The notes under the pieces were generated by a model. That model worked only from the letters and a program-made list of their open reading frames with translations, did not search any database and was not told the origin of the DNA. The position numbers and the translations under genes were made by a program. DNA of 64,000 bases from Roseovarius sp. SCSIO 43702 (GTDB lineage Bacteria > Pseudomonadota > Alphaproteobacteria > Rhodobacterales > Rhodobacteraceae), in NCBI RefSeq assembly GCF_019599045.1, contig NZ_CP080623.1:3308501-3372500 (forward strand). The letters run 5' to 3'. Shown here piece after piece: positions 1 through 8,509 of the stretch; position 1 is the first letter of the stretch; every line of letters begins with the position of its first letter.

Positions 1-2318
1 TCGACGAAGGCATAGGCCAGGTTCAGTCCGACGCGGTGGCCCCAGTCGCCCGAGGTCACCGTGCCCACGACCTTGCCGTCCTGCATGACCGAGGCGCCGC
101 CGCGCGCGGGGGCATGATCGGCGTCCAGCGTCAGCGTCACCAGCTTCCTGTTCGGGCCGGTCTCGCGACGACGCAGAAGCGCCTCCTTGCCGATGAAATC
201 ACCCTTGTCGAGTTTGACGAACCGGTCCAAGCCGGTCTCGAACGGATCGAACTCCGTCAGGAGATCGGCTTTCCAATGCAGGAAACCCTTTTCCATCCTC
301 ATGGACTCGACGGCTCGCGCACCGAAGATTGTCAGCCCATGCGCCTCGCCCGCCGCCCGCAGTGCCAGGTAGGCGGCATGGAGCGAGGCATTCGGAACAT
401 GTATCTCGTAGGCAAGCTCGCCGGAGAAGCTGACGCCCAGCACGGTGGCCGGGGCGAAACCGATGAAACATTCGCGAACGCTGAGCCACGGGAAGGCTTC
501 GCGCGACCAGTCGCCACGCGAACAGGCCGAGAGGACGGCGCGTGCCTTGGGCCCGGCCAGCACGAGGATCGTCTGGTCATTGGTCAGGCTGCGGATCGTG
601 ACGTCTTCATCGCCCCTCAGATGCGCCCGAAGCCAGTCCATGTCGTGATATTCGCTCGCCGCCGCCGAGCCGTACCAGACGCGTTCGGGCCCCCGGTCGC
701 TGGCGGGCAGGTTGGCGATCGTCGCCTCGCCCTTGACCATGCCATGATGGTTCAGGAGGTATCCCAGCCCGACACGGCCCGCGCGCTTCGTGACAGTGCC
801 GCAGACCATGCGATCGAGGAAGCTGTGCCGGTCCGCCCCGGTGATTTCGAACCTGTTGAAGCCGTTGACCTCGCAGAGGCCCACGTTCTCCTGCACGTTC
901 CGGATCTCGGCGGCGACGATGGGTGTCGCCTCGTCGAAATCGAAGCCGAGGGTGGGGTGAAAATCGGGGTCCGGCTTGATGTAGTCGACCCGTTCCCATC
1001 CATTGACGACGGTGAACTCCGCACCTTCGGCGGCAAGGATCGGCGTCAGGGGCGTGGTCTTGGCAGGGCGGCCCGCCGGGCGATGCTCGTGCGGAAAATG
1101 AAAACGGAACTCGTTCTGGTAGTCCTCGATCGCCTTGAGCGCCGTCAGCTCGACATTCGCATGGCCGGTAAACCGGCGCGGATCGATGACCCATGTGTCA
1201 TAGCACGCCTCGCCATGCACGATCTGCTGCGCCAGAAGCCAGCCATGCCCGCCGCCCTCGCCCAGACCCGCGCGCAGGCCGATGATGCAATAGGCGTTGC
1301 GCTTGCCGGGGATCGGGCCGACCAGCGGCGCACCGTCGATCGTGTAGGTGATCGGGCCGTTGACGACGCGCTTGATGCCGACCTCGGCGAGGACCAGCAT
1401 CCGCTCGAACGCGCCTTCCAGCACGTCCATCACGCGGTCCAGGTCATCGGGGCACAGATCGTTGGAGAAGTCCGGGCTGATCCCGTCCATGCCCCATGTC
1501 TTGCAGCCCTGTTCGTAAAAGCCCACGAGAAGCCCGTTCTTCTCCTGGCGCGAGTAGTAGTCCGAGATCGGGCAGCGCAAGAGCGGCATGCGGTGGCCCG
1601 CCTCCGCGATCGCCGGGATGTCCTCCGTGACGAAATACTGGTGCTCCATCGACGCGACGGGATGATGCACGCCCATCATCGCCCCCACCTCGTTCACGCG
1701 GTAGCCGCAGGCGTTCACCACGATATCGGCGTCGATCTTGCCCTTGTCCGTTTCGACCGTCCAAGTGTCGTCGGCCCTTTGGATCAGACCCGTCACACTG
1801 GTCTGGCGATAGACCTCGGCACCGGCCTTGCGCGCGTGAAAGGCCAGCGCCTGGCAAAGCTGCGCCGGGTCGATATCGCCATCTTCGCCATCCCAAAGGC
1901 CGCCCAGCAGGTTATCGGTCGAAATCAGCGGATGGCGGCGGGCGCATTCCTCGGCGTCGATCACCTCGTAGGTGACACCCATGCCGCGCGCCATCGAGGC
2001 GAAATGACGATAGCCCTGCATCTGCGCTTCGGTGTTGGCCAGGCGGATGCCACCATCACCATGATGATAGCCCACCGGATAATCCGGGTCGTCCCGCAGC
2101 TTCTTGTAGAGGGCGATGGAATGGCTCTTGAGACCGACCATCGTCTGATTGGCCCCGAAATTCGTGACCTGAGCCGCGGAGTGCCAGGTGGTCCCCGACG
2201 TCAGCTCGTCCCGCTCGATGAGCACCACGTCGGTCCAGCCTTCCTGCGTCAAGTGATAGAGCGTCGAGCACCCGGCGATCCCGCCACCGATGACAACTAC
2301 CTTGGTCCGCGATTTCAT
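1..2318 (-). CDS. FAD-dependent dimethylglycine/sarcosine dehydrogenase-like protein with GcvT domain (3' end cut by window)
   Basis: Predicted to oxidise an N-methyl group of a small amine and hand the one-carbon unit to tetrahydrofolate. The N-terminus has a dinucleotide-binding GGGIAG motif (about residues 11-16) and a Trp-His pair (45-46) in the SGTTWH context, where relatives attach FAD covalently. The C-terminal half is a GcvT-like folate domain with a YEIHVP motif. About 772 residues are visible; relatives are roughly 800-830 long, so a short C-terminus lies beyond base 1. The start at 2318 is chosen because a GGAGGG ribosome site sits 4-5 bases upstream; an in-frame ATG at 2333 lacks one. 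It is divergent from the MttB homologue at 2497. The exact substrate (dimethylglycine, sarcosine or another methylated amine) cannot be read from the sequence. Confidence 0.85.
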   Translation of the reverse strand, partial: MKSRTKVVVIGGGIAGCSTLYHLTQEGWTDVVLIERDELTSGTTWHSAAQVTNFGANQTMVGLKSHSIALYKKLRDDPDYPVGYHHGDGGIRLANTEAQMQGYRHFASMARGMGVTYEVIDAEECARRHPLISTDNLLGGLWDGEDGDIDPAQLCQALAFHARKAGAEVYRQTSVTGLIQRADDTWTVETDKGKIDADIVVNACGYRVNEVGAMMGVHHPVASMEHQYFVTEDIPAIAEAGHRMPLLRCPISDYYSRQEKNGLLVGFYEQGCKTWGMDGISPDFSNDLCPDDLDRVMDVLEGAFERMLVLAEVGIKRVVNGPITYTIDGAPLVGPIPGKRNAYCIIGLRAGLGEGGGHGWLLAQQIVHGEACYDTWVIDPRRFTGHANVELTALKAIEDYQNEFRFHFPHEHRPAGRPAKTTPLTPILAAEGAEFTVVNGWERVDYIKPDPDFHPTLGFDFDEATPIVAAEIRNVQENVGLCEVNGFNRFEITGADRHSFLDRMVCGTVTKRAGRVGLGYLLNHHGMVKGEATIANLPASDRGPERVWYGSAAASEYHDMDWLRAHLRGDEDVTIRSLTNDQTILVLAGPKARAVLSACSRGDWSREAFPWLSVRECFIGFAPATVLGVSFSGELAYEIHVPNASLHAAYLALRAAGEAHGLTIFGARAVESMRMEKGFLHWKADLLTEFDPFETGLDRFVKLDKGDFIGKEALLRRRETGPNRKLVTLTLDADHAPARGGASVMQDGKVVGTVTSGDWGHRVGLNLAYAFV

Positions 2319-2496
2319 CTGACCCTCCGACATGCCTGGGCGAAGTAAGCGGCGCTCGGCATCGCTTCGGCAATGACCGGCAATGCGAATGTCAAAATAT
2401 CGAATGCAGTTTGCGATGGGATGATAGTAAGTCGGAATGAATTGCGCGGCCGATCGAATGTGCGGATCACTCGTTCCAAACAAGGCGAGGCACAAC
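2319..2496. promoter_or_regulatory. divergent promoter region between dehydrogenase and MttB-like gene
   Basis: This 178-bp spacer separates two head-to-head genes and must hold both promoters. Its middle is clearly more AT-rich than the flanking genes. A ribosome site (AGGCGAGG) precedes the ATG at 2497 and GGAGGG precedes the ATG at 2318. No convincing operator or -35/-10 pair was identified. Confidence 0.5.
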
Positions 2497-7247: not shown

Positions 7248-8509
7248 TCGTCTTGGCTCTCTACATCGCTGCCTTCGTCGGGGCGTTTGTCATCGTGCGC
7301 CTCGGCATACGCAGGATGATGGTGCGCCACGATTTCACCTCGCTCAAGACCGTGACATTCGGTGACGAAAGCGCCGTGAAACCCGACCGGTGGGCCAGCA
7401 TCATATCGATCGTCACCCTCTTCCTGCTCTGGGGGGCGTTTACCGGCTCCGACTGGGTGCCCATTCATGCACCCGGACCCTTCGTCGGAGACACGGAGTT
7501 CACCTATACCGTGGAAGCGCCGGATGGTGCGCGCGACGATGCGACGGTCCATGCCCGCGTCTATCCCGAGGGAGACTCCGGCGATCCGCAGACCGTGGAG
7601 CCGGGGTCGGGCTTCGCGAAGGACGACTCGATCGCGCTCGCCGCCTGGCGTTCGGACCTCGTGCTGGTGGACAAGAACGACGAGGTGACGCGCGATGACG
7701 GCGCCAGGATCGTCGCCATCGACGGCAAACCGGTGGTCCCCGGAAGCCGGGTCGAGGTGGCCGACGGGGTCGTTACCGTCACGGCCAAGGGATCGCTGAA
7801 TTTCGTGCCCGACGCAGGCATGCAGATGGAGCCGATCTGGCTCCCGGCGCCCGAGGCAGTCGTCGCCCGGATCAAGGAAATCTCGAGCCAGGGCTACCAG
7901 GGCTTCACCCTGTGGGAGCATCTCTTCTGGTCGCTCTTCCGCGTGATCGTCGGCTTTCTCTGTGGCGCGCTCATCGGCATCCCCCTCGGCTATGCCATGG
8001 GTCTCAGCGACTGGTTCCGCGGCTGGTTCGATCCGATCGTCGAATTCATGCGCCCGGTGCCGCCGCTGGCCTTGATCCCGCTCGTCATCATCTGGGCGGG
8101 AATCGGCGAGACCGGCAAGATCATCCTGCTATTCCTTGCGGCGCTCTGGATCATGGCGATATCGGCCCGCGCGGGCGTGTCGGGAGTCGCGATCTCCAAG
8201 GTGCATGCCGCCTATTCGCTGGGCGCCAGCCGCTGGCAGATCCTGCGCCACGTGATCGTGCCCAACTCCCTGCCGGAGATTTTCACCGGCGCGCGGGTCG
8301 CCATGGGCGTGTGCTGGGGAACCGTGGTCGCCGCCGAACTGGTCGCGGCCGAAAAAGGGGCGGGCATGATGATCATGGTCGCCAGCCGTTTCCAACTGAC
8401 CGACATCGTGCTCATGGGGATCATCCTGATCGGCGTGATCGGCTTCACGATCGACATCCTGATGCGCAAGGCCGAGGATTGGCTGGTGCCCTGGAAAGGA
8501 CGCACCTGA
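7244..8509 (+). CDS. ABC transporter permease (TauC-like) with inserted periplasmic domain
   Basis: A 421-residue permease; TauC/SsuC relatives are usually about 250-280. Transmembrane segments lie at about 2-21 and 52-68. A hydrophilic, acidic, beta-rich stretch of about 120 residues (75-195) follows, with repeated short Val/Thr-rich strands such as GVVTVTAKG. The normal family core begins at WLPAPEAV (199) and includes the EAA-loop YSLGASRWQILRHVIVPNSL (324-343). The insertion therefore sits between the first helices and the core and should face the periplasm. It could contact the binding protein or a ligand. No frameshift is seen, and the stop is at 8509, about 100 bases before the tRNA gene. 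Confidence 0.9.
   Translation: MIVLALYIAAFVGAFVIVRLGIRRMMVRHDFTSLKTVTFGDESAVKPDRWASIISIVTLFLLWGAFTGSDWVPIHAPGPFVGDTEFTYTVEAPDGARDDATVHARVYPEGDSGDPQTVEPGSGFAKDDSIALAAWRSDLVLVDKNDEVTRDDGARIVAIDGKPVVPGSRVEVADGVVTVTAKGSLNFVPDAGMQMEPIWLPAPEAVVARIKEISSQGYQGFTLWEHLFWSLFRVIVGFLCGALIGIPLGYAMGLSDWFRGWFDPIVEFMRPVPPLALIPLVIIWAGIGETGKIILLFLAALWIMAISARAGVSGVAISKVHAAYSLGASRWQILRHVIVPNSLPEIFTGARVAMGVCWGTVVAAELVAAEKGAGMMIMVASRFQLTDIVLMGIILIGVIGFTIDILMRKAEDWLVPWKGRT

Follow-up and report, generated by a model that had tools for sequence, protein, structure and literature searches.

A candidate catabolic module for an N-methylated aminosulfonate in Roseovarius sp. SCSIO 43702

Genes at the locus

The genome of Roseovarius sp. 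SCSIO 43702 is a single contig of 3.61 Mb, of which we analysed a 64,000-nucleotide stretch at 3308501-3372500 (hereafter the window). At its start, a gene for a dimethylglycine dehydrogenase (DMGDH)-type flavoprotein stands head-to-head with one for a non-pyrrolysine MttB homologue, followed by a LysR-type regulator and a TauABC-type importer. The original prediction, made from the window alone, had proposed that these six genes serve uptake and demethylation of a methylated amine or aminosulfonate. All six are present as reading frames with matching domain profiles, and uptake with demethylation remains the best reading. Together the genes probably form a catabolic module that acts on an N-methylated aminosulfonate. 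N-methylated cysteinolate (2-amino-3-hydroxypropanesulfonate) is the most likely substrate, and N-methylated taurines are a close alternative. The features are as follows, with L007 the record of the DNA neighbouring the window past the dehydrogenase end.

1..2318, minus strand: DMGDH-type FAD/GcvT dehydrogenase, 811 aa, running past the window edge (domain and neighbourhood scans)
2319..2496, no strand: intergenic region separating the divergent dehydrogenase and mttB genes, bounded by the chosen start codons; presumed control region
2497..4020, plus strand: non-pyrrolysine MttB-superfamily protein (PF06253), 507 aa; predicted corrinoid methyltransferase
4028..5002, minus strand: 324-aa LysR-type regulator, its gene convergent with mttB and divergent from the importer
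5358..6359, plus strand: TauA/SsuA-type periplasmic binding protein, 333 aa, with a signal-peptide-like start by eye
6438..7247, plus strand: TauB-type ABC ATPase, 269 aa
7244..8509, plus strand: 421-aa TauC-type permease carrying a long extension at its N-terminus
L007 7313-8326, beyond the window, dehydrogenase strand: cuyA, 56 bp after the dehydrogenase
L007 5891-7168, beyond the window, dehydrogenase strand: hpsN-like gene, 144 bp after cuyA
8609-8684: tRNA-Thr, after the permease
L007 350-4977, strand opposite the dehydrogenase: TAXI-TRAP transporter and DadA-like gene, past hpsN and not counted into the cluster

The last 118 bases of the dehydrogenase gene lie beyond the window edge, with the stop at L007 8383. 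The edge therefore hid both cuyA and the hpsN-like gene from the earlier reader. CuyA (D-cysteate sulfo-lyase) scores 519 bits against the NCBIfam equivalog NF052482, whose cut-off is 450. The hpsN-like product belongs to the histidinol-dehydrogenase family, and its closest solved structures are dihydroxypropanesulfonate (DHPS) dehydrogenases (8wwe, E 1e-159, and 8v35), the former an (R)-DHPS dehydrogenase. It carries GRYSH, and GRY[SA]H is found in 35/35 rows compared (34 of them different). This G-R-Y-A/S-H motif distinguishes HpsN from the G-S-A-P-L of HisD, and a Cupriavidus HpsN crystal holds L-cysteate bound as an inhibitor (PMC11382572). No hpsO or hpsP was noticed among the neighbouring frames scanned, a scan that did not cover every frame and included no dedicated search, and no tpa or xsc was recognised at the window's own locus. 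A second CuyA is encoded elsewhere in the genome (L229 9542-10546, 557 bits), with a racemase-like stretch directly after it. A small reading frame also lies past the hpsN-like gene, outside the window.

The dehydrogenase contains DAO, FAO_M, GCV_T and GCV_T_C domains and falls within the DMGDH family, FAD-histidine motif included. Its sequence SGTTWHSA corresponds in alignment to TWHAA in the solved dimethylglycine dehydrogenases 4p9s (513 bits) and 5l46, and the histidine of this motif is presumably the FAD carrier. From these features it is predicted to be an N-demethylase that hands the methyl carbon to tetrahydrofolate. It shares domain order, motif and folate-binding GcvT half with dimethylglycine dehydrogenases and oxidases, but sits among sulfonate genes.

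The MttB homologue matches PF06253 at 355 bits (cut-off 25) over positions 1-490 of 500, placing it in the superfamily, and is the lowest scoring of six PF06253 genes in the genome. There is no in-frame stop in 2497-4020, and the protein scores 336 bits against TIGR02369, below the cut-off of 525, so it is not a pyrrolysine MttB; Pyl334 of the solved MttB 7xcl aligns with Met352 (MttB residue numbers are counted from window position 2485). The protein is predicted to be a corrinoid methyltransferase taking the first methyl off a quaternary substrate. It shares non-pyrrolysine MttB-superfamily membership with the glycine betaine:corrinoid methyltransferase MtgB (2qne, 9yce), but Y94, N199, R309 and H345 of MtgB, the glycine betaine contacts predicted by docking (PMC6855144), are replaced by G130, S236, G347 and E383, and it is not assigned to MtgB. 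Gly110 and Tyr364, MttB residues taken from PMC9842639, align with G130 and Y382. This residue comparison, together with gene context, weakens glycine betaine as the default substrate, and the methylated-amine option of the original prediction (glycine betaine, trimethylamine) is not favoured. For homarine, a single literature search found no link. A single PF02607 corrinoid protein (L249 9150-9908) is encoded for the six mttB paralogues, far from all of them; a gene close to it looks by eye like one for a homocysteine methyltransferase. This neighbourhood resembles the split methionine synthase of Phaeobacter (PMC12366255), and the PF02607 protein as partner of MttB is a guess.

The importer has the gene order and domains of the TauABC taurine importer, but its components lie below the equivalog cut-offs (TauA 174/304, TauB 288.5/357 and TauC 239/342 bits) and its permease is 421 aa long. 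Among solved structures, the binding protein is best matched by the taurine-binding protein 6ssy; the frame 5385-6359 served as query in its family and structure searches. In Ruegeria pomeroyi, tauABC imports taurine (PMC10130141).

Conservation and partners of the enzyme pair

Among 295 genomes of the family, mttB orthologues (60-100% identity) occur in 59, the window's own included, while paralogues lie at 48% or less. Dropping 13 of 144 loci as near-identical mttB copies left 131 orthologous loci. Eighty named loci among the data are the best 80 of 530, and counts that include them lean towards near kin. Where at least 2.7 kb is available upstream of mttB, the dehydrogenase is present in 111/123 loci and is divergent from mttB within 600 bp in 107 of those 123. 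An adjacent convergent LysR gene is found in 74/124 loci with at least 1.3 kb downstream. The conserved unit is the dehydrogenase/mttB pair, often with the LysR gene, and its recurrence is not due to chance.

The partners are more varied. Sulfonate genes at the 131 loci include window-type HpsN (12), other HpsN (13), CuyA (12) and a CuyB-like racemase (8), and the importers are of Tau (7), ChoX (8) or ProU (21) type. The Tau-type pairing, which had been called unusual, is infrequent and recurs. The proposed check of neighbourhood conservation across the Rhodobacteraceae was borne out for the enzyme pair and failed for the importer, which is exchangeable; an obligate tight cluster of all eight genes is rejected. 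On a FastTree phylogeny, the 12 loci with window-type HpsN require 10 changes, and the association has thus probably arisen or been lost several times (all trees are from FastTree, with many weak forks). This exchangeability, along with ureohydrolase genes near mttB, would fit a core of broad N-demethylating function, with a substrate that shifts by clade with the travelling genes (sulfonate, guanidino compound or carnitine relative). However, the presumed-pocket residues G130, S236, G347 and E383 are identical in 131/131 orthologues, which argues for one substrate class, and we consider a shifting substrate unlikely. G130 also occurs in 40/40 and E383 in 37/40 paralogues compared, so these two mark a wider group rather than this substrate.

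Linkage was scored as hpsN, cuyA, a cuyB-like gene or tauABC within 9.3 kb of mttB. Counting one orthologue locus per genus, with both flanks longer than 8.5 kb in 48/58 and a 3.1-kb contig (L021) excluded, 7/58 loci are linked (window included) compared with 0/40 paralogous mttB loci from 38 genomes of the family (Fisher p 0.022); when the locus of the window itself is removed, 6/57 compares with 0/40 (p 0.037). Adding close kin and taking loci with full flanks gives 24/103 (p 0.00016), for loci that are not independent. In the 40 control loci hpsN, cuyA, racemase, TauA and TauC were not found at the same thresholds, and one held a lone TauB-like ATPase (47%). The linked loci include two with hpsN, cuyA and racemase (G104, G100) and one with tauABC (G045). 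CuyA-like proteins at 55-56% in Silicimonas (L116, L118, L126, with L041 the L126 contig) pass the 50% threshold and may be other pyridoxal-phosphate enzymes. At genome level, CuyA is present in 30/59 genomes with an mttB orthologue versus 59/236 without (hand count; p 0.0002, uncorrected for kinship). The sulfonate linkage is real, yet not general.

Cargo of other kinds was seen at several loci. Agmatinase-type ureohydrolase genes accompany the core in many, ten of them in Ruegeria (L142, L157, L158, L159, L167, L171, L174, L175, L181, L182), where two ureohydrolases stand side by side directly after mttB together with a ProU-type importer; the others are L039, L041, L046, L116, L118, L121, L124 and L126. 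The cargo at these loci may be a guanidino compound. In four further Ruegeria loci (L097, L099, L113, L127) the same core has a GlxA regulator and acyl-CoA genes of carnitine-like type beside it. On the R. pomeroyi megaplasmid (L102 8941-18261) the genes after a paralogous mttB encode a class-III aminotransferase, two DMGDH-like proteins and a product resembling sulfoacetaldehyde acetyltransferase (401 bits, below the cut-off of 620), an arrangement similar to that at L202, L209 and L216; this is perhaps another methylated sulfonate pathway.

Dehydrogenase loci on plasmids and without mttB

Dehydrogenase orthologues occur in 92/295 genomes of the family. Of 398 Pseudomonadota genomes, 13 have a match at E 1e-200 or better, 12 of which belong to the window's family (own included) and one to the same class. 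In at least 11 of the 92 genomes, own included, hpsN or cuyA lies within 12 kb of the dehydrogenase (hand count), compared with a rough chance estimate of 1.7, for which roughly two hpsN and 0.3 cuyA were taken to occur in each genome. Several such loci come from genomes in which no mttB orthologue was found: LysR, dehydrogenase, cuyA, aminotransferase, racemase and hpsN in G007, the same order minus the aminotransferase in G241, LysR, dehydrogenase and hpsN in G293 (the latter two on one strand), and a dehydrogenase beside cuyA on the same strand at a contig end in G195. In G007 and G241, too, the dehydrogenase shares its strand with the neighbouring cuyA. The dehydrogenase is the centre of the gene association.

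Plasmid operons provide stronger evidence than the genus-level counts. In seven of ten plasmid records with a dehydrogenase at 59% or more, sulfonate genes are linked within about 10 kb. The dehydrogenase is linked to hpsN, racemase and cuyA in Ruegeria sp. SCSIO 43209, to an exporter, hpsN, cuyB, aminotransferase and cuyA in Leisingera methylohalidivorans, which also has a ChoX-like protein, and to tauABC in R. conchae. In R. pomeroyi DSS-3, cuyB (SPO_RS20085) follows the dehydrogenase (SPO_RS20090) by 112 bp (CuyB 276 bits, cut-off 190). The Paracoccus seriniphilus plasmid carries a run of dehydrogenase, etfB, etfA, folD, purU, tauABC, cuyA, aminotransferase, cuyB and hisD-type hpsN on one strand, with gaps of at most 83 bp and divergent from a LysR gene; its CuyA (548 bits) and CuyB (279 bits) are over cut-off and its TauA is 58% identical to that of the window. 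The gammaproteobacterium Pseudomonas sp. MPC6 has the dehydrogenase (59.5%) on a conjugative plasmid, in a same-strand run of cuyA, putative exporter, hisD-type gene, aminotransferase, TRAP transporter, cuyB and dehydrogenase, continuing with a betaine-type binding protein, electron transfer flavoprotein (ETF)-type genes, purU, folD, ETF-ubiquinone oxidoreductase and ProU genes; CuyA and CuyB are again over cut-off. ETF, FolD and PurU are the needs of a tetrahydrofolate-coupled oxidative demethylase. At R. pomeroyi L261 7472-12439, genes for a guanidino-oxopentanoate decarboxylase and an arginine-deiminase-family protein also adjoin the dehydrogenase.

These runs bear on whether a glycine-betaine-type demethylation pair merely shares osmolyte islands with sulfonate genes by chance, the substrates being unrelated. 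The DMGDH-family membership of the dehydrogenase, the ProU or ChoX importers at other loci, the lack of a sulfonate gene found near most core loci and the four of six retrieved mttB-less dehydrogenase loci that are unlinked all favour such coincidence. Nevertheless, same-strand dehydrogenase runs with cuyA, cuyB, hpsN or tpa recur in several genera and one gammaproteobacterium, the four predicted MtgB contacts are replaced and linkage is 0/40 around paralogous mttB, which makes coincidence quite improbable.

Other loci point to taurine. G197 has the order MocR regulator, tpa, dehydrogenase, LysR and tauABC, and G045 the order MocR, tpa, tauABC, dehydrogenase and mttB. On the plasmid of strain SC52, tauABC adjoins a tpa that lies 9.5 kb from the dehydrogenase, with purU, folD, etf, dehydrogenase and LysR at some distance past tauABC/tpa. 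N-methylated taurines may therefore be additional or alternative substrates of the dehydrogenase. An alternative account has the enzyme pair demethylating N-methyltaurine, dimethyltaurine or taurobetaine, while the adjacent hpsN and cuyA degrade unmethylated cysteinolate or DHPS from the same importer. In its favour are these three loci, the 77-78% identity of the G197 tpa product to proteins named hypotaurine--pyruvate aminotransferase Tpa, and the wide occurrence of the window's TauC clade (142/295 genomes), which is what a taurine importer should show. Against it, the neighbours at the window locus are cuyA and hpsN, without recognised tpa or xsc, and the G197 MocR exceeds the PdxR (pyridoxine regulator) cut-off, which leaves its taurine link a guess; we regard this division of labour as doubtful. 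In two genomes the cuyA/hpsN cassette stands with tauABC and no demethylase beside it (G096, and G070, whose dehydrogenase is on another contig). The cassette alone, with dehydrogenase, and with dehydrogenase and MttB suggests a graded series that would match, in turn, an amine, a secondary or tertiary one and a quaternary one.

Proposed pathway and its implications

Of the two options in the original prediction, cuyA, the HpsN-type gene and the cuyA, cuyB, hpsN and tpa with tauABC of relatives favour the aminosulfonate. We infer N-methylated cysteinolate as the first and N-methylated taurines as the second candidate for the exact substrate, and in the same conditional sense propose an order of steps. 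TauABC would import the substrate by recognising its sulfonate end, and MttB would pass one methyl of a quaternary substrate on to a corrinoid protein. Oxidative transfer of the remaining N-methyls to tetrahydrofolate would then fall to the DMGDH-type flavoprotein, leaving an amine whose CH2OH end the HpsN-like enzyme would oxidise to give cysteate. CuyA may finally convert D-cysteate to pyruvate, ammonia and sulfite, aided by a CuyB-like racemase encoded elsewhere, and the LysR protein would regulate the module. More tentatively, it is possible that a sulfobetaine, N,N,N-trimethylcysteinolate or close kin, is an osmolyte of marine phytoplankton used through a mobile pathway in the Roseobacter group and a few others. 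There, MttB- and DMGDH-type enzymes would demethylate, HpsN and CuyB/CuyA would mineralise what is left, and uptake would go through importers of two unrelated kinds, Tau-like via the sulfonate and Cho/ProU-like via the quaternary nitrogen.

A number of observations weigh against the N-methylated cysteinolate reading. Methylated cysteinolate was not found in the paper listings and text passages searched. Sulfonate genes within 9.3 kb were not found in 51/58 one-per-genus loci, and among the linked ones G123 and G004 have only a DHPS-type hpsN and G201 only a 56% CuyA-like gene. The same core is elsewhere accompanied by ProU (21/131), ureohydrolases or carnitine-like genes. Three of the ten plasmid loci are unlinked (Roseobacter litoralis, Mesorhizobium sp. 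with ProU, and Marinovum algicola beside dimethylsulfoniopropionate genes), as are G055, G134, G106 and G210 among six retrieved loci with a dehydrogenase and no mttB orthologue; this sample is 6 of 20 loci sought, G195 and G197 are its sulfonate-linked members, and the linkage of G195 was known beforehand. In G241 cuyA, hpsN and the dehydrogenase have one in-frame stop each. HpsN could act on DHPS instead of cysteinolate. The window-type HpsN clade (19 rows) is supported by FastTree, but the P. seriniphilus protein falls outside it, and HpsN monophyly is rejected as a mark of the cassette. In R. pomeroyi, cysteate uptake runs through another importer, cuyTUVW (PMC10130141).

Compared with the known HpsN/CuyB/CuyA route for C3-sulfonates (PMC11382572), the HpsN motif is the same, CuyA is over cut-off, and CuyB is over cut-off in the relatives tested; the window cluster adds an N-demethylating flavoprotein and an MttB homologue. 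The N-methyltaurine dehydrogenase route degrades N-methyltaurine with release of methylamine. The substrate class is thus shared, but there the nitrogen leaves with the methyl, whereas here the methyl would go and the amine stay. Judged by titles and abstract openings, our literature search found nothing on enzymes of this kind demethylating N-methylated aminosulfonates. The components are known; the proposed combination of N-demethylation with sulfonate degradation would be a new arrangement.

Cysteinolic acid occurs widely as a solute in algae (PMC8703288), and DHPS, cysteinolate and similar sulfonates flow from algae to bacteria in quantity (PMC11131964, PMC8703288). If the N-methylated aminosulfonate reading is true, methylated aminosulfonates would be genuine environmental substrates and a possible algal food source, and one-carbon and sulfur cycling would be joined by N-demethylation preceding desulfonation. 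The reading predicts metabolites to seek in algae and is testable in R. pomeroyi DSS-3, for which an arrayed mutant library exists (PMC10130141). It would also provide a function for the common MttB/DMGDH pair, whose mttB is carried by a fifth of the family genomes searched (59/295).

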